This document shows positions 3,010-27,003 of a stretch of DNA of 32,137 nucleotides, piece by piece. The notes under the pieces were generated by a model. That model worked only from the letters and a program-made list of their open reading frames with translations. It had not been told where the DNA came from and searched no databases. Position 1 is the stretch's first letter. Every line of letters begins with the position of its first letter. The stretch comes from Candidatus Thiodiazotropha taylori (GTDB lineage: Bacteria; Pseudomonadota; Gammaproteobacteria; Chromatiales; Chromatiaceae): assembly GCA_019100305.1 (NCBI GenBank), contig JAHRHW010000002.1:1-32137 (forward strand), in the 5' to 3' direction. Made by a program: the position numbers and the translations under genes.

Positions 3010-5940
3010 TTAATTTCTTTTTAATAAACTCTGTAACTCATCGATGAATTGATCATGCATTGAAACCAGTTCCTCTAATCTTTGCAGCGCCTGCTTCTGA
3101 TTACCACTGCCTGACAAATTTCGTAACTCCTCAGCCAAAAGGTGTATCTGCTCATGATTTTCTCTGAGTTTACCATACTGCTCTAAATGTCCATATTTGA
3201 AATAACCAGTACCATGAAACCAGCGACCGAACTGGCAGCGGTTACTGTCTAATAAACTTTGATTTGATTGAGATCCAGCGTTGGCTATTGCATCTATTGA
3301 TTGATTTATCCATTGTTGATGGCCGACAATTGCTGTTTCCACATCTGTATTACTGTCTATCTCCAGTCTTTTATTTAAAGTTTGCCACTCCGTATTGCTG
3401 CGCCACTCTTCTCTCCAGCGCATAAAATCCTCTGCAGGCATTGGTCTTGCTATTCCGTAGCCCTGACCCAACTGGCATCCAAGTCGTAGTAAGGCCGCAC
3501 CATGTTCCAAACTCTCAACCCCCTCAGCTATCACCGGATGATGAAATGCGAGTGCCAATCTAACGACACTCTCTACAATTGCCAAGTCTTGAGGGTCCTC
3601 CAACATATCACACACAAAGCTTTGATCAATTTTTAATGTATTTACTGGTAATCGATGAAAATAGGTTAGTGATGAATAACCAGTACCAAAATCATCCAGT
3701 GTTATCTGTACACCCATTTCCTGACAGCGCAACAGGGGTTGGATTATCCGGCTTAAATCCTCAATGGAAGTTGTCTCCAAAATCTCGAGTTCTAGTTTAT
3801 TGGCAGGTACAGTGTCATATTTTTCCAGTGCCTCCTTCACATGATGAACAAAATCCGAATGTTGAAGATGATGCGGACCGATATTCACACTAACCGTTAA
3901 GTCCATTCCTTGGGATTGCCAGAGTTGCTGTTGCTCCAATGCTTTATCGATTACCCATTTTCCCAACTCGATCTCTAGGTCCGTATCGGTCATGATATGC
4001 AGGAATGAGCCCGGTGCCAGCATACCCTGCTCTGGATGGAACCATCTCAATAACGCTTCCATACCGATTACCTGGCCAGTGTACATATTAACTTTTGGCT
4101 GATAATAGAGGGCAAACTCGTTATCTCTAATCGCTTTGCTGAGACGATCATAGTTTTCTCGATAGGCTTTAACCTGCCTATCCTGCTCAGGATCGAATAG
4201 GTGGATACAGCTCTTACCTCGTTCCTTTGCTACATACATTGCTTGATCTGCATGTCGAAGCAGTAAATCTGCATCGGAATCATCTGATGGATAAAGCGTA
4301 AAGCCAATACTGGCAGATACGACTAACTCAATATCCTGAAGAATGATAGGCTCCTCAATCACCTGCATAACACGTTGCAGAATAAATTCACAACCTTCCT
4401 GGCTTTCAAGTTCGGTCAGTATAATTACAAATTCGTCACCACCGATTCTCGAGACGGTATCACCACCTCTGACGATATGTTCCAGTCGTTGGGCAACTTC
4501 AACAAGCACCAAATCACCCGTGTCATGCCCATATTTGTCATTTATTGGTTTAAAGCCATCCAGATCCAAGTAGCAAACCGCTACCAGGTGCCCCCTTCTT
4601 TTGGCTCTCACTATGGCCTGATTCAAGCGATCTGACTTCAAGAGACGGTTTGGAAGTCCTGTCAAGGAGTCATAATGCGCGATTCTGTCTAATTCAGCTT
4701 CAGCTTTTTTTCGATCGGTAATATCGTGAATGATAGAGTAGAGTACTTGTTTCCCACCCCAGTCAATCGGCCCTGAGTGCACCTCAACGTCTCTAATTTC
4801 TCCGCTTGCCAGTGCATGTTGAAAATAGAAATGATTTCGTTCTTCCCTTTTTGCCAGATCCATCTCATGGGCAATTTCAGCATCAGTCAAAACATTAATA
4901 TCCCCAATATTCTTATTCAACAACTGCCCAATATGGTAGCCATAATAGACTTCTGCAGCGCGATTTGCTGCAAGAATCTCTCCACTACCCGGATCAATCG
5001 TCAACATGATCGCTTTACTTTTTTCGAACAACATCCTGAAGCGTTCTTCACTGTCTCTTAGCGCATCGGAAAGCTCTTTTTCTCTCTCCAGCGCTTCACT
5101 GAGACCTTCGTTGCTCTTTTTCAGATCCTGATTAATATCTGCCAACTCTTGAGTGCGCATCTCAATTCGTTGTTCCAATTCACGTCCAGATTTTTTAAGT
5201 TCCACTATCTGTTTTTGTAGAATTCCACCCATCTCATGCAAGGAATAAGATAGCCGCCCAATCTCATCTTTGCTGCGAATGGCTATTTTCGAATCAAATT
5301 TTCCATTAGCAATCGATTCAGCATAACCAGATAGCTGTTTAACGGGTTCAATGACAGATCGCCGTAAAAAAAGATTAAGCAATAAGGCAATTACAACGAA
5401 TGTAACCAAGACATTGATTATTATTTGTGCAATCGCCTCTTCCACCTTCTGATCAACGATTGAGGATAGAAAACCGAGCCTGACAACACCAACATAGTTT
5501 TCATCATGATCAAATAAAGGTATTGAGACATCATAGTATCTTTCACCATCGAATCGATCATAAATCTGCCAGATTGGTGATTTTACGTTAAGAATTTTTT
5601 GTGCTACTGGATCTGTAAAGTGATACCCGATTAAGCTCTTGTCACTGTGGAATAAGACGATTCCAAGCTCATCTGTGACACCTGCATATGCGATGTGACT
5701 GTTTTTCTCGACCACTTCCACCAGTTTATTATCCATGCCTGAAAGCGAATCAAGCGGCAGTCCTAAAGCAAGCAATTCCGTCAACAGGCTTTCTATGCTA
5801 TATCCAATACCGAAACTGCCCGTTAGCAATGCATCTGTATACTTACTACGAAAACTGATTACATTAAGCATGGAACTGACTAAAAGAGAGATAGCCAGTA
5901 TGCCAATTGTAATTAAAAGAATTTTTCTACTAAGCCCCAT
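3010..5940 (-). CDS. Membrane c-di-GMP turnover protein: periplasmic sensor (Cache-like), HAMP, PAS, GGDEF, EAL, C-terminal CZB-like domain
   Basis: Two TM segments flank a sensor region; HAMP-like stretch; PAS; RIGGDEFVIIL; GMEALLRWF ... EGVE; C-terminal HQQWI...CQFGRWFHG...YGHLEQY...HEQIHLLAEEL, a CZB-like His/Cys pattern. Confidence 0.9.
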   Translation of the reverse strand: MGLSRKILLITIGILAISLLVSSMLNVISFRSKYTDALLTGSFGIGYSIESLLTELLALGLPLDSLSGMDNKLVEVVEKNSHIAYAGVTDELGIVLFHSDKSLIGYHFTDPVAQKILNVKSPIWQIYDRFDGERYYDVSIPLFDHDENYVGVVRLGFLSSIVDQKVEEAIAQIIINVLVTFVVIALLLNLFLRRSVIEPVKQLSGYAESIANGKFDSKIAIRSKDEIGRLSYSLHEMGGILQKQIVELKKSGRELEQRIEMRTQELADINQDLKKSNEGLSEALEREKELSDALRDSEERFRMLFEKSKAIMLTIDPGSGEILAANRAAEVYYGYHIGQLLNKNIGDINVLTDAEIAHEMDLAKREERNHFYFQHALASGEIRDVEVHSGPIDWGGKQVLYSIIHDITDRKKAEAELDRIAHYDSLTGLPNRLLKSDRLNQAIVRAKRRGHLVAVCYLDLDGFKPINDKYGHDTGDLVLVEVAQRLEHIVRGGDTVSRIGGDEFVIILTELESQEGCEFILQRVMQVIEEPIILQDIELVVSASIGFTLYPSDDSDADLLLRHADQAMYVAKERGKSCIHLFDPEQDRQVKAYRENYDRLSKAIRDNEFALYYQPKVNMYTGQVIGMEALLRWFHPEQGMLAPGSFLHIMTDTDLEIELGKWVIDKALEQQQLWQSQGMDLTVSVNIGPHHLQHSDFVHHVKEALEKYDTVPANKLELEILETTSIEDLSRIIQPLLRCQEMGVQITLDDFGTGYSSLTYFHRLPVNTLKIDQSFVCDMLEDPQDLAIVESVVRLALAFHHPVIAEGVESLEHGAALLRLGCQLGQGYGIARPMPAEDFMRWREEWRSNTEWQTLNKRLEIDSNTDVETAIVGHQQWINQSIDAIANAGSQSNQSLLDSNRCQFGRWFHGTGYFKYGHLEQYGKLRENHEQIHLLAEELRNLSGSGNQKQALQRLEELVSMHDQFIDELQSLLKRN

Positions 5941-6080
5941 AACGAGTGACTTGGCTATACCTTAATTAACATGTGTCAAAGAGAAAATCAGCTCAGAGAT
6001 TAAAGCAGTTACTTTTGGCAATCTATAGTTTGAAAAGATCAACATTCTCATGTTTGTTTTGATGTTCTCCTCATAGAATC

Positions 6081-7181
6081 TCATCTAATGATGTTTTCAC
6101 CAGCAAGTTGCAAAATACCAACCGGTACATTTATCCCAAATCTTTTAGTTTTATTTAAGTCAACAGCGTATCCAAAACGCGCAGGCCATTTAGGCTCAAT
6201 AAATTCAATTGGCACACCATCGAACAGTTCATGAACCATTTCACCCAACTGACGCCCCATACTCTCCAGACAGGGAAATACAACAGCTGTAGCACCCCAT
6301 TTAGAAACGACATCTTTCTTAACCAAGCCAATCAATGGTTTCTCACCATAAGCTTCTACAACCTCTGCAAAATGCTGTCTCGCCCCTAGTTGGTCATTAG
6401 GTTTTAAAAAAGCATCCACCCGATCATTCATCCGCTTGATAACGGGAACTGCCATCATTGCCATCTGTTCATCTCCACCCTCACCTGTTATCAATGGCAA
6501 GGGATGAAATATCACTTCAATATCACTAAAAGCAGGATCATGTTTCAGAAGGGCTTTTATCCATTTATTGTAGCTTTGAGATTGAGGCATATTGGCATAT
6601 ATCAATCCAACACTCCGTAATTCAGGCATTAATTGACGGAGAAACAAAAACCTTGACTTGACTGGAACAGGATAACTGACACCGGTGAAATTGACTTTTG
6701 GCGGTTGATCAAAGCTGTCTATAACTCCAATACCGATGGGGTCTGTAGGCGCGCCAAATACAACTGGCACATCACTTTCATAGAGTGTGTTTTTGGCGGA
6801 TATAGTGGCGACTGTGCCTCCAACATATACCACATCGTAATTATTCGGTATTTCACGCTTTAGAATTTCAGCACCCAAAGAGACACTGTTGTCAATATAG
6901 TGATGAGTGATTTCCAGGTTATCTCCTTGCCGATAACCTCTCAGCGTCAGTGTCTCAATGAGTGAATTGCGAACATCCTCATAGGGACTTCCAGCTTGAG
7001 AATCCAGAATCAGCAGGCGATAAACTTTATCTATCTCAGATGAGGAAATAGCGGCAACTGGGCTAAGACAACCTAGAATTGCCATCAAGACGCCAAGTGT
7101 GGCTTGTATTGTGCTCAATCTACCGTCAGCCAAGGTAGAAGTCATTGCTGTACAGTTGCCGGCTGAAGCTGCCAATCTCAT
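6081..7181 (-). CDS. ABC-type substrate-binding protein (ABC_sub_bind / PF04392-like), periplasmic
   Basis: LILDSQAGSPYEDVRNSLIETLTLRGY; VVYVGGTVATISAK; PVVFGAPTDPIGIGVI; FTGVSYPVPVKSRFLFLRQLMPELRSVGLIYA. Confidence 0.8.
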   Translation of the reverse strand: MRLAASAGNCTAMTSTLADGRLSTIQATLGVLMAILGCLSPVAAISSSEIDKVYRLLILDSQAGSPYEDVRNSLIETLTLRGYRQGDNLEITHHYIDNSVSLGAEILKREIPNNYDVVYVGGTVATISAKNTLYESDVPVVFGAPTDPIGIGVIDSFDQPPKVNFTGVSYPVPVKSRFLFLRQLMPELRSVGLIYANMPQSQSYNKWIKALLKHDPAFSDIEVIFHPLPLITGEGGDEQMAMMAVPVIKRMNDRVDAFLKPNDQLGARQHFAEVVEAYGEKPLIGLVKKDVVSKWGATAVVFPCLESMGRQLGEMVHELFDGVPIEFIEPKWPARFGYAVDLNKTKRFGINVPVGILQLAGENIIR

Positions 7182-15363: not shown

Positions 15364-15644
15364 TCATTTATAACCAAGTATTTTCATGCGTAATTGAGAA
15401 CCAGTCAGGTAGTCAAGAATATTGCAGAGCATCATCCTTTTGACTAACAACTCTTTTCCTACCATTTTACTGTAGCAAGAAAAGCCTCCCATTGGGGCAG
15501 ATTTTAATATCCCTCCTTTCATGCCATAATCAGCTTGAAAGAGTGGAATTTACAGCACACCAATTTATAAACTGCGTTTATACCTATACTGTGGCTGTCA
15601 GCAGGACGTGGTTAGTTGGTCTCTGAAGGTAACTGACCTGTTTC

Positions 15645-17735
15645 ATGACTATTTCCTGCCCAAGCAATAAGAGACAATTTCAGTCAGCATCTGCTCGAAC
15701 GAAATCCACACATTCCCACCTGTTTCCAATCCATTTAATCAGCACACTGCTTATTATCTACTGCAGTCAGGCTACCAGTTCTGACTCCAGTCAGGATCAG
15801 GAGTTACACAATCTGCTCTCCTTACTTGAAAGCCAGACGGAACTGGCGACCAAAAGCAGAATGAATACGGACTATATTCCTGGCATGGCAAGCATTCTCT
15901 ATGGTGACGAGCTGTTGGCTCGAGGTGCCAGAACCGTCTGGGAAGCTCTGGGGCTTGTACCCGGTATAAGTTTAGGAATGGAGTTCACAGGCGAGAAACA
16001 GATTCTCAGCAGAGGGGTTGGGCATGGATATGCTTCAGGAAATGTAAAAATACTCCTCGATGGAGTTTCCTTGAATTCGACTCTACTGGGTACTGCCAAT
16101 CCGGCCCTCAACCTACCGATTGAACAGATAGAGCGTATTGAGGTTATACGTGGTGCCGGTGCATCTGTTTATGGTGAGTATGCCTATGCGGGTGTCGTCA
16201 ATATTGTTACCAAACAAGCTTCGACAGGTCTACATACTCATTATGAAGATGATTCTCACTATGGTTTGGGTGGTTATTGGCAATGGTATGACCCCGCTAA
16301 CGATCTGACTGCTTCAATCAATATCTCAGGACTTAAGGGCGATGGCCATAATGTGGAGGTTGAAGAGGATGCCTGGTACCACACTGGTCAGGCAGAGCTC
16401 TCGAATGCACCTGGACCAACAAACGAGGCCAAAAAATATCTGGGTCTGTTTTTTGATTTAAAGTGGCAGGGATGGTTTGCCTCGGTAAAACTGCTTGATG
16501 ATGCCTATGGTGATCATTATGGAATAAATCATTTCCTTCCTCCTGCAGATGACCGCCTTGCATCCAGGCAGACTTACAACTCTTATCGTTTCGGCAATCA
16601 CCACAGGCTCAGCGATAAAATTCGCACAGAAATCAAATTTGAAATTCTGGAACATGAACGGGACAGGGATCAGCTCTATATCTATCCTGCAGGATTCATT
16701 ACCCCCTACCCTATTTATCTTGATTCACACTACAAAGAGAAAAAATACGAGATTTCTGCCGATATCTATTGGCGACCCAACACTCAACATGAAACACTGC
16801 TGACTGTTAAATCCACCGACACCTCAATTGAAGAAGCTGACTGGCAGTGGCCTGATCTCCCATTTGAGCTACCCCCGAACTGGATAGATACTGAGCGGGA
16901 AAGACACATTTTCACTTTGATTGCACAGGATCAGTATCGGTACAGCGAAGCATTTACATTAACAGCAACCTTGCGCTATGACGACTACAACGATCTCGAT
17001 AATCCCACAAGTCCAAGATTAGCCGGTGTCTGGCGGGTCTCTCCTGATAACATTGTAAAACTTCAGTTTGCCCGAAGTTTCCGCCCACCTACTTTCTATG
17101 AGTTACAAAATCCTGGCAAGGGTAAACTCTCGTTGAGCGCAATCAACAGCACTGAAATAGCCTATATCATCAAAAAAAATGACTGGCGCAGCAATTTCAT
17201 CGTTTTTCAATCTGATTTAATCGACCCTATATTTTTTGATGAACTCAACTTTGGCGGCTACATCAACGCTGAGGATGCACGACTTAAAGGATTTGAGTTT
17301 GAGTATCAACAACGCTTAGGAAACAATTTTAAACTGGATGGCAATCTCTCCTATGTGGACGCGAATTTTAAGAATAGTGGTGAAGATCTACCGGGTGGCG
17401 CTGAATGGCTGGCAAATTTGGGAATAATCTGGAAACCCATAGAGGACTGGTCAACCTCACTGCAAGTAACCTATGTAGGTGAACGTACCCGTGCAAATCT
17501 CGATACCCGTTCCAACTTATCTGCTACCACACAATATGATCTAACCATAGGTCACTATGGAACCATACCTGGATTAAAGTTTCTTTTTGGCATTAAAAAT
17601 CTGACTGACGAAACCATCAGATATCCCCAACAGTTGACCACCAATTTTGCAGGAGATGCATTTTTACCCTATCCCGATGACTACCACCGTCCTGGACGAC
17701 GCTGGTGGTTATCTTTGAACTACGACATACAGTAA
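15645..17735 (+). CDS. TonB-dependent outer-membrane receptor
   Basis: Plug domain (EALGLVPGISL...LLDGVSLN...IERIEVIRGAGASVYGEYAYAGVVNIVTK) and beta-barrel with RSFRPPTFYELQNP and a terminal aromatic-rich strand. Confidence 0.92.
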   Translation: MTISCPSNKRQFQSASARTKSTHSHLFPIHLISTLLIIYCSQATSSDSSQDQELHNLLSLLESQTELATKSRMNTDYIPGMASILYGDELLARGARTVWEALGLVPGISLGMEFTGEKQILSRGVGHGYASGNVKILLDGVSLNSTLLGTANPALNLPIEQIERIEVIRGAGASVYGEYAYAGVVNIVTKQASTGLHTHYEDDSHYGLGGYWQWYDPANDLTASINISGLKGDGHNVEVEEDAWYHTGQAELSNAPGPTNEAKKYLGLFFDLKWQGWFASVKLLDDAYGDHYGINHFLPPADDRLASRQTYNSYRFGNHHRLSDKIRTEIKFEILEHERDRDQLYIYPAGFITPYPIYLDSHYKEKKYEISADIYWRPNTQHETLLTVKSTDTSIEEADWQWPDLPFELPPNWIDTERERHIFTLIAQDQYRYSEAFTLTATLRYDDYNDLDNPTSPRLAGVWRVSPDNIVKLQFARSFRPPTFYELQNPGKGKLSLSAINSTEIAYIIKKNDWRSNFIVFQSDLIDPIFFDELNFGGYINAEDARLKGFEFEYQQRLGNNFKLDGNLSYVDANFKNSGEDLPGGAEWLANLGIIWKPIEDWSTSLQVTYVGERTRANLDTRSNLSATTQYDLTIGHYGTIPGLKFLFGIKNLTDETIRYPQQLTTNFAGDAFLPYPDDYHRPGRRWWLSLNYDIQ

Positions 17736-17954
17736 CAACGGGCCCTTTACTACTGTTGTCTTATGCCCAGTTGCTTATAAAGACTTGCCAATCAAGGCAC
17801 AAGGAGCGAGATTTGATTATTCCACAGGGTCGAAGAGCAGCAACGGACAGCCCGTTTTCGTTTGCAGCCAATCTGATAATTTGGACTGGGGTTCACGAGT
17901 TCTGAACAATCCCAGAGACTTGCTAACATGGAGAACATAGCAATCAGCAAAGAA

Positions 17955-18515
17955 ATGAGTCGCTCCCTATGGAGGGGTGTTGTTCTACTCATACTGTTGC
18001 TTAGCAGGACTTGCTTTGCCGATGTCCTCTGGCCTGAAGACAAGCAACGACTTAACGTCGCCATAAATATTCTACCTGCATGCCTGATGGCAGACCTTAC
18101 TCTGTCGGATAAGCTCTCATCAAGCGGAAAACTCCGCATTCTGGTTCTTCACGAGAATCAGCAAAAAGTCGCTCTGACCGTATCCGCAGGACTGCTGGCA
18201 CTAAAATCAATCGCCAACTTTCCACTCGATGTCGAAATCATCTCCACCTCTGACAGACAAAAACCGAATCTTTCTCCAATTGCAGCACTGTTTGTCGCCA
18301 CTCCCGGTATTAACTCGGAGATATTAAATAATTGGGTTGAATATAAACAAACTACGGTATTCTCCCCTTTTTCCGGCGATGTTGAACGCGGTGCTGTTGC
18401 AGGTATTTACGTTACTGACCGAATCCTGCCTTATATCAATCTTGCCCAGGCCAAAAAAGCCGGCGTAGTTTACAAGCCATTTTTTCTACGTATTGCAAAG
18501 CAGTATTATGAATAG
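17955..18515 (+). CDS. YfiR/DUF4154-like periplasmic protein; start revised from 17928
   Basis: Signal peptide MSRSLWRGVVLLILLLSRTCFA; C-terminal GIYVTDRILPYINLAQAKKAGVVYKPFFLRIAKQYY resembles the YfiR ending (INLxxAKKAGLxxSxxLLRLA). Confidence 0.65.
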   Translation: MSRSLWRGVVLLILLLSRTCFADVLWPEDKQRLNVAINILPACLMADLTLSDKLSSSGKLRILVLHENQQKVALTVSAGLLALKSIANFPLDVEIISTSDRQKPNLSPIAALFVATPGINSEILNNWVEYKQTTVFSPFSGDVERGAVAGIYVTDRILPYINLAQAKKAGVVYKPFFLRIAKQYYE

Positions 18516-20760
18516 GAACAGGCGACAAAATGGACCCTCGATGCTGGCTAAGAGTCATAGCCTGATATTGGTTTTTACAGCCCTGGGCATTACTCTCGGA
18601 ATTTTAATCGGAACTTATTGGTATTTGACTCTTGAACCCAGATTAGTAGCTCATGCGCAATCCCAAGCAAATACTTTAGCACAGGCGCAGGCAACCCTTC
18701 TGAGTAAACCGCTGAGCATAACAAATCAAGCTCTCCTTGAGTTGAAGTTGACGCAGGCTATGGATAGCATCTTACTGATTCGGGATCCTTCAATCGAATC
18801 ACCGCTGATTCAAAGAATTGAAATTGAAATTGACTACACAATGGTCAATGTTCCACCCGAGAGTTTTCCCCTAAGTAGAGGAAAAGAAGAGTGTGCAGAC
18901 TGCTTTGTTTCAGAAGTACCGCTATTCCATGAGTACTCCCGTTCACTGATCGGTATAGCACGTATATACACCGGGCGAGACTTTATCGATAATCTAATAA
19001 ATAACGTCCAGCAAAAGCTCTTAATATCCAGCATTATTCTGATGTTGTTACTTATTCTTGCATGGGCTACAGCTGAGTGGCTGTTATCTAAGTTACGTCA
19101 AAGTCAGTCCAATTTACAGTTGATCATAGATGCTGTTGCTGATCCACTTTTTGTGTATGGCACGGAAAGTGATCTACTTCTGAAGAATAAAGCAGCAGAA
19201 TCATTGGCCTCTTCAGAACTGATGATGAATGGAAACATCGGAAGCCCAGACTACTTGCCACCCCGGGAGATGATATCCAGTGTGATTCGAAAAGGTCGAT
19301 CAATCAAGTACATTCACACCGTAAAACGATCTCACGGAAAACCACAACGCATGGAACTGCAAGCCAGCCCACTCTCGATCGATGATACTATGGCTGTTGT
19401 CATCACTTACCGAGATATAACAGAACATCTCGAAATCGTGGATGAACTCCAGATCAAGAAACAACAGCTTCAGCAGTTAGCGGAAAAGGACTCACTGACG
19501 CAACTACCCAATCGTTTTCTGTTTACTAAATTGCTCAATCAGGCAATCTCACGCGCAGACCGTACCAACAGTATTTTGGCCATCCTCTTTCTCGACCTTG
19601 ATCGATTCAAAGAGGTGAACGACAGCCTTGGACACGATGCGGGAGATGAACTGCTGATCACTACCGCCAATCGATTGCTCCATGCCATACGGTCCGGTGA
19701 TGTGGTAGCCCGTCTGAGTGGCGATGAGTTTGTCATTTTATTGGAAAACACCAAGCGCACCGAAGATGCCTCGTCTGTAGCCCGACATATCATAAAAACC
19801 ATCCGCCAACCGGTCACACTGCAAGGCAAACGGTTACAACCGGCCGTAAGTATCGGAATCAGCATATACCCAAATGACGGCAAAAACGGTGAACGATTAC
19901 TGCAGAACGCCGACACTGCAATGTACCGAGCAAAACGTCAAGGTAGAAATACTTTCAGACTGTACAACACAAGCATGACTGAATCCATACAGGAGCGCAT
20001 CAATATCATCGGCGAACTTGAAAGCGCTACTGAAGAAAATAACTTTGTCATGTTATATCAGCCACAAATTGACCTCTATTCAAAGAAGTTGATCGGTGTC
20101 GAGGCCCTACTGCGTTGGAAAAGAACAGATGATGATCTGGTATCACCCTACGAGTTTCTTGAACTTGCTGAAGAGATGGGGCTTACTCAACTGATAGGTC
20201 AATGGGTCTTGTACAATGTCTGTATCCAGACAGCACAGTGGCATAGTGACAATCTGGCTCCTCCAAGAGTCGCCATCAACATCTCTGCGAGTGAACTCCT
20301 GCATGATGATTTTCTAACCAATGTGGAGAATATCCTGCACACAACCGGTTGTGCCGGTGAGTGGCTGGCTATGGAAGTGACTGAGAATCTTTTTATACAT
20401 AGGTTAGATGAAGCAGCAAATCGTCTACAACGATTGAAAGAGATGGGTATTTCTATCGTGATCGACGATTTTGGAATTGGTTACTCCTCATTGGCACGAT
20501 TAAAAAAGCTACCGATCGACCTACTCAAGCTCGATAAAGTTTTTTTGGAGAACCTCAACAAGGATAGTGGTAATCTGGCAATCGTTCAGACTGTAATTGA
20601 CATGGGACAGAGGCTGGGAATCGAAGTTCTTGCGGAGGGAGTGGAAACGGCTGAACAAGAAACGCTTCTCATCCTATCAGACTATCGAATTGCCCAGGGG
20701 TACCGCTATGGCAAGCCTATATCCGCCGAGCATTTCCGCGATAGGCTGTTGGACTCATAA
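18508..20760 (+). CDS. Membrane GGDEF-EAL protein with periplasmic sensor and PAS-like domain
   Basis: ATG 18508 overlaps the upstream TAG (18513-18515). Two TM segments; RLSGDEFVILL (SGDEF variant); GVEALLRW, DDFGIGYSSLARL, AEGVE of the EAL domain. Confidence 0.92.
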   Translation: MNRNRRQNGPSMLAKSHSLILVFTALGITLGILIGTYWYLTLEPRLVAHAQSQANTLAQAQATLLSKPLSITNQALLELKLTQAMDSILLIRDPSIESPLIQRIEIEIDYTMVNVPPESFPLSRGKEECADCFVSEVPLFHEYSRSLIGIARIYTGRDFIDNLINNVQQKLLISSIILMLLLILAWATAEWLLSKLRQSQSNLQLIIDAVADPLFVYGTESDLLLKNKAAESLASSELMMNGNIGSPDYLPPREMISSVIRKGRSIKYIHTVKRSHGKPQRMELQASPLSIDDTMAVVITYRDITEHLEIVDELQIKKQQLQQLAEKDSLTQLPNRFLFTKLLNQAISRADRTNSILAILFLDLDRFKEVNDSLGHDAGDELLITTANRLLHAIRSGDVVARLSGDEFVILLENTKRTEDASSVARHIIKTIRQPVTLQGKRLQPAVSIGISIYPNDGKNGERLLQNADTAMYRAKRQGRNTFRLYNTSMTESIQERINIIGELESATEENNFVMLYQPQIDLYSKKLIGVEALLRWKRTDDDLVSPYEFLELAEEMGLTQLIGQWVLYNVCIQTAQWHSDNLAPPRVAINISASELLHDDFLTNVENILHTTGCAGEWLAMEVTENLFIHRLDEAANRLQRLKEMGISIVIDDFGIGYSSLARLKKLPIDLLKLDKVFLENLNKDSGNLAIVQTVIDMGQRLGIEVLAEGVETAEQETLLILSDYRIAQGYRYGKPISAEHFRDRLLDS

Positions 20761-21939: not shown

Positions 21940-22016
21940 GGAGCGGTAGTTCAGTTGGTTAGAATACCGGCCTGTCACGCCGGGGGTCGCGGGTTCGAGT
22001 CCCGTCCGCTCCGCCA
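21940..22016 (+). tRNA. tRNA-Asp (anticodon GTC), CCA encoded
   Basis: GGAGCGGTAGTTCAGTTGGTTAGAATACCGGCCTGTCACGCCGGGGGTCGCGGGTTCGAGTCCCGTCCGCTCCGCCA folds as a cloverleaf; anticodon loop CTGTCAC. Confidence 0.98.
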
Positions 22017-22496
22017 CTATCCAACTGACCATTCCATTCGTCAGCAATAGCTAGCCCGATAAGTCTCCTCATCTCCTGACACTCATTTAGCAACTCGCAA
22101 GGCTCCTCTGACAAACCAGTTAAGTGATCGCTATCACCTGTGCGAAGACCTGGATACGATTGTCCAGCACAACAGCAGATTGGCGCATAGTTAGGCTCAA
22201 ATTCCCCAAAGGCATGGCCTTCAAGCAACAACTTCACACTGCTTTCTTATATATAGTATCCCTAGTAGGCATTTATTTCCTCATTCTATAAGATTGTTCG
22301 TTTGTTACCCAATTCAATCAGATTCTAAATCTGTCATCTGCTCGAATATTTGTGGTAAGACCCTGTTCCTGTGAGCTTCTTGATCATATTTTTTGATACA
22401 AACCACAGTATTGCAGAGAAGAACTACCTACCCTTCTTTGCAATCACAGAATCATCCTCCATCTGTCATCATGACATTAGGGACCAGCACAGCAAT

Positions 22497-25346
22497 ATGG
22501 ATGCGTTAAAAAAGATCTCACCCAACAATATTCTGTATCTTCTTCTCTCTCTGTTGTTGACCGGCTGTATAGAAGAGAACACCGCCCCTGAAGCAGAAAA
22601 TGATCGTGCCACTCTGTCACAGGGGGATAGCATTCTCATCAAAGTGTTGGACAACGACAGCGATGCCAACAGTGACCCTCTGGAGGTTACCAACCTCTCC
22701 TCACCGGAAAAAGGACGAGTAACGCTGCAGACTGATGGCTCGGTACTCTACCAGCACGATGGAAGCGATGCAGCCCAGGACCAGTTTACCTACACCGCCT
22801 TTGACGGTGCGCTAGATTCCGCACCAGCGACAGTCACTCTGACCATTCAAAGCAGTGAAACCAACCCAGATGGGGATGCAGAGGTCACCCCATCCCCAAC
22901 CACTGTCAATCAACGCCCCATTGCCACCAATGATCAGTTTCAGCTCGAGTCGGGAGCGCAGACCTCGCTGAACCTGTTACAGAACGATCAGGACCCTGAT
23001 GGCGACCCGCTGCAGATCGCCCACCTGACTGATCCACAATATGGCTCTCTGCAACTCTCAGTCGATGGCACGATTGTGACCTACCGCCACAATGGCTCGG
23101 ATGCTGTGCAAGATCAGTTCAGCTACATAATTACGGATGGCAGAAACCAGTCTCAACCGGCTCAAGTTACCATTCGAGTTAACAGCTCAAATCAAGCTCC
23201 GCAATTCACCCAGTCAGGGCAAAGTCGTTCGATTGCCATCGATGAACTCTATTCTTTGGTTTTCCAGGCAGTCGACCCGGACGGTGACGAGTTGACCTAT
23301 GATGTCACGGGCCTTCCCTACTGGCTGGTCTACGCAGCGGAGACAAGAACCATCTCAGGCTCCCCTTCCTGGGAGGAGCTGGGTCAGCGGTATCAGATTG
23401 TCATATCGGCTTCTGACGGAATCAACGTCACTGAAAACCAGTTCACCCTGAACATAGAGCAGACACAAACCGTGACAGATGAAATGGCGCACCGCTTGTT
23501 GCTCCAAAGCACCTTCGGCCCGGTGCAGAGTGACATAGACCAGGTAAAAAGCCTTGGTATCAGTGGTTGGGTCGACCATCAACTGAATATGAATTCTGCC
23601 TATAGCAGCCCAACAGACGGTTGGAAAACCCAACTGGAGCGTACGCAAGAGATTGCAGTGCAGGCTGAACCCGGCATTGATTGGTATGAGAGCAATCAGA
23701 TTTTCAATCAACAGCCTCACAGCAGCTCTGTCAAGGATTATCAGATGGCCGCTTGGTGGGAGAACGCCTTGGGTGCCACAGCACCGAACCGTCAACAGAT
23801 CGGTACTGACCAGCTACGCCAACGCGTCGCTTATGCTTTGAGCCAGCTGCTTGTTGTTTCCACCAGCAGCCCGACGATGGTATCTCGAGGCGAATCCCTG
23901 GCTGTCTATTACGATCTGTTAACGAAACACGCTTTCGGTAATTATCGGCAGCTGCTGAAAGAGATCTCCATCAGCCCCGCCATGGGAGTCTATCTGTCCC
24001 ACCAAGGCAATCGCAAAGCCGATCCGGATACGGGTTCACGCCCCGATGAAAACTTTGCCAGGGAGATCATACAACTCTTTACCATCGGACTGTACGAATT
24101 GAATCTGGACGGTTCACCAAACAGGGATGGCGATCATACAACTTATCCTGACCAGGGCAACCATACCGTTGCCACTTACACACAATCCGATATTGAAGAA
24201 CTGGCAAAGGTGATGACGGGTTGGGATCTTGCTGATAATCATCGATTCGGTCAACTCCGCTCCAGCAGTGGCAACTATACCGTGCCGATGGTTTTCAATC
24301 CCACGATGCATGAGGATGAGGCAGCGGAAGGTGGCGATGGCAGGATTACCCTGATGGGACGAATCCTGTTGCTCAATGCCGGTTCGGATCAGAGCGGTCT
24401 CGACAGCGCCCTGGACAGACTGTTTGCCCATCCCAACGTTGCCCCCTATGTCAGTAAGCACCTGATCCAGAGATTGGTAACCTCGAATCCCACAGCACAC
24501 TATGTGGCTCGTATTGCCCAGATCTTCAACAATAACGGGCAGGGCGTAAAAGGAGATCTGAAGGCGGTCGTACGGGGAATCCTGCTCGATCCTGAGGCGC
24601 GTGATGAGAGCTATCAGTCAAACCCGGCCTATGGCAAAGCTAAAGAGCCCCTGTTGGCGATAACCCAATTACTCCGTGCAGCTCATGTCACGCCACTGAA
24701 TGGTTGGTTGAGCAAGCAAAATGTTGCCATGAATCATGTCTATTGGTACCGGGAACCTGAAAAACAGATTAACCAGGCCGCGATGCGCTCACCATCTGTA
24801 TTCAACTTTTACAGTCCCGGCCATGTCCCGAGTGATCCCTACTTTACCAGCCATCAGCTGGTTGGACCGGAGTTTCAGATCCAAACCTCACAAATGCTTG
24901 TGGACTACAACAATCTGGTAGTGACCCTGATATCAAATCTTGAAAAAAACAGGATCATTAAAAATAGTGGAGAGTCTCTGAACGAGTTTGCCAGCTCGCG
25001 AAGACACTACAGCCTCTCACTGCTGACCAACTTCGACACTGAACTCCGCCTGTTCGAACAAGCGCTGGAGAACGACTCGAATGGTGATTTTTCAAGCCTT
25101 AAAGATGACACCATGGACAGTAGTGGTGATACGCCAAAATCCAGGGGGATCAATGCACTGATAGATCATTTGAATCTGCAACTGTTGGGCAGGAAGATGA
25201 GCGACGAATATCGTGATGCCCTAAAACATTATCTGATGGACAGTAGTTATACCAATTCGGGCAATAACATCGAAATTGCCAGGCGAATCGTTCAGGAAGC
25301 GTTCACTTTCATCACCACCTCCAGCGCTTACATGATTCAAAAATAG
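22497..25346 (+). CDS. DUF1800-family lipoprotein with N-terminal tandem Ig/cadherin-like domains; start revised from 22371
   Basis: MDALKKISPNNILYLLLSLLLTGC lipobox; repeated VLDNDSD/LLQNDQDPDGDPL...YxHxGSDAxQDQFxY units; DUF1800-like AHRLLLQSTFGP..., ENFAREIIQLFTIGLYELN, VMTGW, SPSVFNFYSPGH. Confidence 0.85.
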   Translation: MDALKKISPNNILYLLLSLLLTGCIEENTAPEAENDRATLSQGDSILIKVLDNDSDANSDPLEVTNLSSPEKGRVTLQTDGSVLYQHDGSDAAQDQFTYTAFDGALDSAPATVTLTIQSSETNPDGDAEVTPSPTTVNQRPIATNDQFQLESGAQTSLNLLQNDQDPDGDPLQIAHLTDPQYGSLQLSVDGTIVTYRHNGSDAVQDQFSYIITDGRNQSQPAQVTIRVNSSNQAPQFTQSGQSRSIAIDELYSLVFQAVDPDGDELTYDVTGLPYWLVYAAETRTISGSPSWEELGQRYQIVISASDGINVTENQFTLNIEQTQTVTDEMAHRLLLQSTFGPVQSDIDQVKSLGISGWVDHQLNMNSAYSSPTDGWKTQLERTQEIAVQAEPGIDWYESNQIFNQQPHSSSVKDYQMAAWWENALGATAPNRQQIGTDQLRQRVAYALSQLLVVSTSSPTMVSRGESLAVYYDLLTKHAFGNYRQLLKEISISPAMGVYLSHQGNRKADPDTGSRPDENFAREIIQLFTIGLYELNLDGSPNRDGDHTTYPDQGNHTVATYTQSDIEELAKVMTGWDLADNHRFGQLRSSSGNYTVPMVFNPTMHEDEAAEGGDGRITLMGRILLLNAGSDQSGLDSALDRLFAHPNVAPYVSKHLIQRLVTSNPTAHYVARIAQIFNNNGQGVKGDLKAVVRGILLDPEARDESYQSNPAYGKAKEPLLAITQLLRAAHVTPLNGWLSKQNVAMNHVYWYREPEKQINQAAMRSPSVFNFYSPGHVPSDPYFTSHQLVGPEFQIQTSQMLVDYNNLVVTLISNLEKNRIIKNSGESLNEFASSRRHYSLSLLTNFDTELRLFEQALENDSNGDFSSLKDDTMDSSGDTPKSRGINALIDHLNLQLLGRKMSDEYRDALKHYLMDSSYTNSGNNIEIARRIVQEAFTFITTSSAYMIQK

Positions 25347-25371
25347 GAACCCAGTAAGGAAGTATATAAAT

Positions 25372-27003
25372 ATGGCAATGCATCGTCGTGGATTTTTGAA
25401 ATCACTGGCCAGCCTTGGTTGTATCAGCAGTATGGGCAGCCTGGCACTCCCCAGGCAGGCCGTTGCTGCAGCACCGGATTTCAATGATTACAAAGCCTTG
25501 GTTTGCATCTTTCTGTATGGCGGCAATGATGCTTTCAATATGCTGATTCCTACCTCAACAGATGCCAATAAAGGCTATGATCCATATGCTGAGGCTCGGG
25601 GAAGCCTGGCAGTCAACAACAGCGACCTCGGCATTTCCCAGGTAACCACCAATAGTGGCAATCTGAATCAAGGTGTTCTTGGGGCAGGACAGCAAAATCC
25701 CTACAATCAGAATCTCGATCAGAACACCGCCTATACTGGGGGCATCTACCCGTTGAGTGATAAAGGCATTGACCTGGGTGTCAACGGCGTCATGCCGGAA
25801 CTGGCTCAGTTGATCATCGACAACAGAACCTCAATTTTGGCAAATAGCGGTACTCTTGTCAGACCCGTCACCCGTGATGAGATTATTGATCATCGTGCGG
25901 ATCTCCCTGTCTATCTTTTTGCCCACAATCATCAACAGCGTATTCTGCAAACCGGGCAGGCAAATAATCTGAATGATATCGGCTGGGCGGGAAAGATTGC
26001 GGACCAATGGCACAACATCAATCAAAATAGCCCGCTGGGACTGAATATCTCCTACGCCGGCAATGATCGCATGTTGATTGGCAACAGCTCATCTCCACTG
26101 GTTCTCAATCCGGGAAATGTCCCGAAGATCTATCATTTAAGTGGAGACAACAACACCAACTCCGATCGGCGAGCCCTTTTCAATGCCTTGGCGGGTATCG
26201 AAGGCTCCACAACAAGAGTTCAATTCGGAGCGGACAGGACGGATCGCGTGACTGAGCCATTCAGAACGCTCTATAACAGCAAGGAGTTGAATGCAGTCGC
26301 AACCTTTGATCAATTGAAGCAGAGTTGGGACAGCTTGGAGATCAACTATGCAACCACCGGATCCTATGGAGAAACTCTGTTCGATATTCCGACTGCGCAA
26401 CAACTTGGCTTTAACCAGCCAATTCGTGGCAATCTGATACGCCAACTGGAAGCTGTGGCCAAAATGGTTCATCTTGGGGCATCAGGGAATCTGGGTGCTG
26501 AGTTCAATCGACAGATCTTTTTTGTTGAACTCGGTGGATTTGATACCCATGCCAGCCAGGCATCACAACACCCCCTGCTTCTGAGGGAGTTAAGCCTTGG
26601 TCTTTGGAAATTCCAGAAAGCAATGGAGGAACTGGGATATGCTGACAGTGTCACCAGTTTTACCATGTCCGACTTTGGCCGTACGTTGAGTTTCAACGGC
26701 GATGGAACCGATCATGCCTGGGGATCACATCAGCTGGTTATGGGTGGATATGGCAGTGGTGATTCCGGAACACTCCGAGGTGGAGAGATGATCGGCGAAT
26801 TACCGGAGATGTTACTATCAGGCAATGATGACTACAGTAACAAAGGACGGATGATCCCTACCCTCTCCCAGGATCAGGTCAATGCACCACTCACACAATG
26901 GTTTGGTGTCGATCAAAGCCAGATTTCAAATCTGTTTCCTAATATCAGGAATTTCCAAACCGGAACTGGTATCGAAACGGCTTTTGCACCAATCTTTGCG
27001 TAG
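25372..27003 (+). CDS. DUF1501-family exported protein with Tat-like signal
   Basis: RRGFLKSLASLGCISSMGSLALP; LVCIFLYGGNDAFNMLIP; ELGGFDTHASQ; SDFGRTLSFNGDGTDHAWGSHQLVMGG. Confidence 0.88.
   Translation: MAMHRRGFLKSLASLGCISSMGSLALPRQAVAAAPDFNDYKALVCIFLYGGNDAFNMLIPTSTDANKGYDPYAEARGSLAVNNSDLGISQVTTNSGNLNQGVLGAGQQNPYNQNLDQNTAYTGGIYPLSDKGIDLGVNGVMPELAQLIIDNRTSILANSGTLVRPVTRDEIIDHRADLPVYLFAHNHQQRILQTGQANNLNDIGWAGKIADQWHNINQNSPLGLNISYAGNDRMLIGNSSSPLVLNPGNVPKIYHLSGDNNTNSDRRALFNALAGIEGSTTRVQFGADRTDRVTEPFRTLYNSKELNAVATFDQLKQSWDSLEINYATTGSYGETLFDIPTAQQLGFNQPIRGNLIRQLEAVAKMVHLGASGNLGAEFNRQIFFVELGGFDTHASQASQHPLLLRELSLGLWKFQKAMEELGYADSVTSFTMSDFGRTLSFNGDGTDHAWGSHQLVMGGYGSGDSGTLRGGEMIGELPEMLLSGNDDYSNKGRMIPTLSQDQVNAPLTQWFGVDQSQISNLFPNIRNFQTGTGIETAFAPIFA

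Follow-up and report, generated by a model that had tools for sequence, protein, structure and literature searches.

TonB-dependent receptors (TBDRs) signal across the cell envelope in the FecA-FecR-FecI system. In the YfiBNR system of Pseudomonas aeruginosa, the periplasmic protein YfiR binds the inner-membrane enzyme YfiN at a motif of the AAVVF type (PMC3375315). The 2012 PLoS Pathogens study of YfiBNR found YfiB missing from nearly all divergent Yfi operons, noted varied outputs, and put forward a modular core of YfiR and YfiN that is joined to other inputs; TonB is not mentioned in that study (PMC3375315). No description of a coupling between a TBDR and YfiR was found in the open-access papers searched.

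The window analysed here is a stretch of 32,137 nucleotides from the clam symbiont Candidatus Thiodiazotropha taylori, in which positions 15645–20760 of the + strand encode a TBDR, a YfiR-like protein and a GGDEF-EAL protein, in that order. We lean towards reading this locus as a modular cassette that signals from envelope to cytoplasm and is related to YfiNR, with the TBDR as its outer-membrane member and information passing from the receptor to the YfiR-like protein, to the sensor and to c-di-GMP. The sequence-only reading of this DNA had described three genes on one strand with an 8-bp overlap between the last two, and both points hold: Pfam domains and ORF positions return the same trio, and the sensor ATG at 18508 lies within the end of the YfiR-like gene, whose stop codon ends at 18515. 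With ~190 bp between the receptor and YfiR-like genes, the receptor gene is probably co-transcribed with the other two. Of the named relatives found, Ca. T. endoloripes is the nearest, at 86% in the YfiR-like protein.

The first gene (15645–17735, +) encodes the receptor, in which Pfam identified both domains of a TBDR, the plug (PF07715, 8e-16) and the barrel (PF00593, 1.1e-31), in keeping with the earlier placement of a TBDR in the outer-membrane position where YfiB would be. A FecA-type N-terminal STN domain is absent by Pfam at E-values up to 10. Assignment as BtuB or another named receptor was rejected, as NCBIfam matches fall far under their cut-offs. Its domains, neighbourhood and place in a tree mark it as a cassette-type receptor; among 204 genomes of the order, 43 of the 44 receptors at least 45% identical to it adjoin a YfiR-like gene and the remaining one meets a contig end.

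The ~150 bases directly 5' of the receptor (15500–15644, +) are strongly conserved in two congeners and have no unusual fold energy. The sequence-only reading had seen no Fur box there, and none was found: the best match is 12/19, compared with a mean of 11.2 in shuffled sequence. An upstream riboswitch or other RNA was rejected, since the Rfam search of the window returned no family upstream of the receptor and the conserved stretch folds no more stably than its shuffles (z -0.95). The sole Rfam match of the window is a tRNA gene at 21940–22013, which is followed at 22371–27003 by genes for a DUF1800 protein with cadherin-like repeats and a DUF1501 protein. On the - strand, at 3010–7181, a gene for an ABC_sub_bind protein adjoins one for an sCache-HAMP-PAS-GGDEF-EAL protein with a C-terminal CZB domain.

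The second gene (17928–18515, +) encodes a predicted periplasmic YfiR-like protein of 195 aa. Its start had been placed at the ATG at 17955; position 17928 is more likely, because the start there, CATGGAGA, is common to two congeners and the 17955 ATG is not. The DUF4154 model (PF13689) scores the protein at 16.2 bits (E 0.011), under the Pfam cut-off of 24.9, so that membership of the YfiR family, as proposed from the sequence, does not follow from the HMM search of this protein itself. The proposal stands on other grounds. Five orthologues (G049, G139, G055, G140 and G107) exceed the cut-off, and hhalign aligned a 40-sequence profile with the canonical DUF4154 profile across the domain (probability 95, E=3.7e-8). 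The AlphaFold (AF2) model (pLDDT 92) has its best Foldseek TM-scores to the YfiR crystal structures 4yn7 and 4yna (0.59 by query, 0.70–0.71 by target). At eight loci of the order (L050, L060, L067, L080 and L086–L089) a YfiR-like domain is followed in one chain, ~357–438 aa as mechanically called, by a second domain with canonical DUF4154 features, which Pfam confirmed in one of them, L050, at 5e-45; most of these fusions are convergent with a TBDR. Because orthologues pass the cut-off, the profiles align, the model matches YfiR and natural fusions occur, homology to DUF4154 is well supported, though the protein is divergent, and a YfiR fold is supported by the model. The two conserved cysteine pairs of YfiR are absent, as the mature part holds zero or one cysteine in the 40 members.

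Next in the Foldseek list after the YfiR structures are substrate-binding proteins of the ABC_sub_bind type (3lft) and from Rhodothermus. This likeness of the YfiR fold to ABC_sub_bind solute-binding proteins, also described in PMC4655355, bears on an account in which the receptor is a transporter alone, its cargo is sensed in the periplasm by the YfiR-like protein in the manner of a solute-binding protein, and the two never touch. The window holds a second such pair, the ABC_sub_bind protein (6081–7181) and its GGDEF-EAL sensor (3010–5940), which speaks for cargo sensing, but the ~160 mature residues of the YfiR-like protein form a single lobe and thus offer no two-lobe cleft to close on a ligand. 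We judge this account rather unlikely; it is itself a sub-version of the receptor-to-sensor relay and shares in its probability.

The third gene (18508–20760, +, with an alternative TTG start at 18493) encodes an inner-membrane sensor with two predicted transmembrane helices, a periplasmic domain containing a CxxC motif, a PAS-like domain, and GGDEF (6.2e-53) and EAL (8.8e-66) domains identified by Pfam, the latter in agreement with the earlier remark that the output protein also carries an EAL domain. The codons of the CxxC motif, here CADC, lie at 18892–18903 (+; residues 134–137 counted from the TTG), and an alignment of sensors shows both cysteines in 48 of 53. The EAL domain has its catalytic motifs, and the cyclase motif reads SGDEF. 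Cassettes have the N-terminal sensor domain in common and differ in output: Thiodiazotropha has GGDEF-EAL, most Chromatiaceae have GGDEF and several others a histidine kinase; the EAL output is restricted to Thiodiazotropha among the cassettes examined.

Neither CHASE8 nor HAMP was found in the sensor by Pfam at E-values up to 10, and hhalign of the sensor domain to CHASE8 sensors gave a partial alignment (probability 82). An AAVVF-type YfiR-binding motif occurs in 0 of 30 sensors, by a strict pattern that itself finds just 13 of 26 CHASE8 sensors. These results bear on a strict YfiBNR arrangement, in which the receptor would act exactly as YfiB does and sequester the repressor YfiR from YfiN. 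The cellular layout is alike and the YfiR fold agrees with it, but with CHASE8, HAMP, the AAVVF motif and the YfiR cysteine pairs all absent and no OmpA gene in the cassette, it appears improbable. The comparison with YfiBNR made by the sequence-only reading therefore survives in part: the YfiR fold and a TBDR at the position of YfiB remain, and the sensor-side and cysteine features of the Pseudomonas proteins do not.

The YfiR-like protein is encoded in 55 of 210 genomes of the order, and 52 of the 61 copies in the 60 loci retrieved lie behind a same-strand TBDR, a count that takes in the truncated receptors of L039–L041. Seven of the other nine are fusions of the YfiR-like and DUF4154 domains that face an opposite-strand TBDR, and two have no TBDR. 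The canonical DUF4154 genes retrieved from the order are arranged in the same way, with 76 of 86 behind a TBDR and three ahead of one; a regex-seeded profile found no OmpA/YfiB-like gene beside any of the 86. In a sample of 40 loci, hand-picked across many families of Pseudomonadota, 24 lie behind a TBDR, three lie ahead of one and four have an OmpA/YfiB-like gene. The loci are related by descent and these counts are not independent. The expectation that the neighbourhood would be conserved is met by the figures of 52/61 and 76/86, and the census rules out chance adjacency. The host genome encodes eight TBDR barrels within 4.23 Mb, and still each of its two YfiR-family genes comes immediately after one; since this order is kept in most relatives the arrangement is not one of chance. 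No flanking genes recur across all cassettes, and synteny is local only.

The cassette of the window type is found, among others, in Thiocapsa, Marichromatium, Thiocystis and Allochromatium, in Thalassolituus, by which it reaches the Oceanospirillaceae, in the Magnetococcales, where the receptor is downstream, and in a Binatota bin. Full cassettes are present in the cultured purple sulfur bacteria Marichromatium gracile and Thiocystis violacea. The host genome also carries a cassette (L180, G000:C186) composed of a TBDR of another clade, a canonical DUF4154 protein and a CHASE8-HAMP histidine kinase. A quick tree was built from 106 TBDR rows, and its unrelated TBDRs sit on long branches; in it the window-type, fusion-type and canonical receptors separate with 4 label changes, compared with 44.0 in shuffles. 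On this tree TBDR subtypes track YfiR subtypes, and since many genomes have more than one cassette type, the match is more than species history. It could arise from co-inheritance of neighbours without contact.

One syntenic locus, adjoining a PHO4 transporter gene where contigs extend that far, was followed through 17 congeners, of which five are complete, three have no receptor and nine have the sensor alone; all 17 keep the sensor, and no YfiR-like gene was found at this locus without it. The three receptor-less loci (L039, L040 and L041) retain remnants of the receptor, and purifying selection acts on their YfiR-like gene and sensor. L040 has an open frame that links a signal-peptide-like start to the final part of the barrel. 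Beyond the genus there are two more receptor-less cassettes, L101 and L071/L112. In the sensor-only G131 and G142, a single deletion that ends at a short shared AGTTTA took the receptor from codon 115 onward together with almost the whole YfiR-like gene. At L279 and L280, the first 114 codons of the receptor are joined, through a deletion at a short repeat, to the final codons of the YfiR-like gene, which still overlap the start of the sensor. For the seven older sensor-only species, the absence of both genes is assumed to be a loss. Among the genomes without the receptor, the sensors of G133, G141 and, upstream of its EAL frameshift, G137 have a dN/dS of ~0.07, a constraint no weaker than in complete relatives. 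Between sensor-only pairs the periplasmic domain changes at a higher rate than the catalytic domains do (ratio 3.35, P=1e-5), and between complete-cassette pairs the ratio is 1.33 (P=0.24); compared directly in the relaxation test, sensor-only and complete loci show no significant difference (P=0.075).

These losses show that the receptor is dispensable for retention of the YfiR-like gene and the sensor; it is not an obligatory member, because relatives have lost it and yet kept the two genes, and nine congeners keep the sensor alone. The order of loss suggests a chain with the sensor as core, the YfiR-like protein as modulator and the receptor feeding the YfiR-like protein. Loss of the receptor while the other two genes stay is also what would be seen if the signalling pair controlled expression of the receptor, with information running from sensor to receptor, and the conserved region upstream of the receptor fits this too. 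Such a direction seems quite doubtful, as the cassettes encode GGDEF, GGDEF-EAL or kinase outputs and no DNA-binding output.

In the relay from receptor to sensor, the YfiR-like protein would dock onto the sensor at its small CxxC-bearing periplasmic domain and set its activity. The receptor may alter this docking by touching the YfiR-like protein or by way of a ligand that it brings into the periplasm, and the sensor would in turn shift c-di-GMP turnover. In Thiodiazotropha the output may be net c-di-GMP degradation, given intact EAL motifs and a GGDEF motif that reads SGDEF. Natural fusions of DUF4154 to histidine kinases (L207, L295, L296 and L297, with a divergent TBDR adjoining in L295 and L296) support a partnership between YfiR and the sensor; no comparable fusion with a receptor was seen among the examined loci.

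The census suggests that signalling proteins of the YfiR type usually have a TBDR as their partner, a pairing not described so far, and it gives a candidate for the input missing from Yfi operons without YfiB. A wider reading, which we offer tentatively, is that YfiR-family signalling throughout Pseudomonadota generally takes its outer-membrane input from TBDRs, with YfiB in the minority, and that receptor occupancy or cargo feeds c-di-GMP enzymes and histidine kinases apart from the FecR-sigma route. If true, TonB receptors would gain a second inward signalling route, to c-di-GMP and to kinases.

The locus can be set beside four described or related arrangements. As in FecA-FecR-FecI, a TBDR possibly signals across the envelope; unlike FecA, the receptor here has no STN domain, and no FecR or FecI is present among the neighbouring genes scanned. 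As in HmsCDE of Yersinia, where a protein assigned to the YfiR/HmsC family by its Pfam name controls c-di-GMP, a YfiR-type protein is involved here; no TonB-dependent receptor is named in the abstract text consulted on HmsCDE (PMC5550408). With YfiBNR (PMC3375315, PMC4655355) the locus shares a periplasmic YfiR-fold protein encoded beside an inner-membrane c-di-GMP enzyme, an outer-membrane third member and modular outputs, and it differs in having a TBDR for the OmpA-like YfiB, a CxxC domain for CHASE8-HAMP, a GGDEF-EAL output and no YfiR cysteine pairs. The canonical TBDR-DUF4154-CHASE8 cassettes, of which L180 is an example, have a canonical DUF4154 protein, a CHASE8-HAMP histidine kinase and a TBDR of a different clade, but their gene order and layout are those of the cassette described here.
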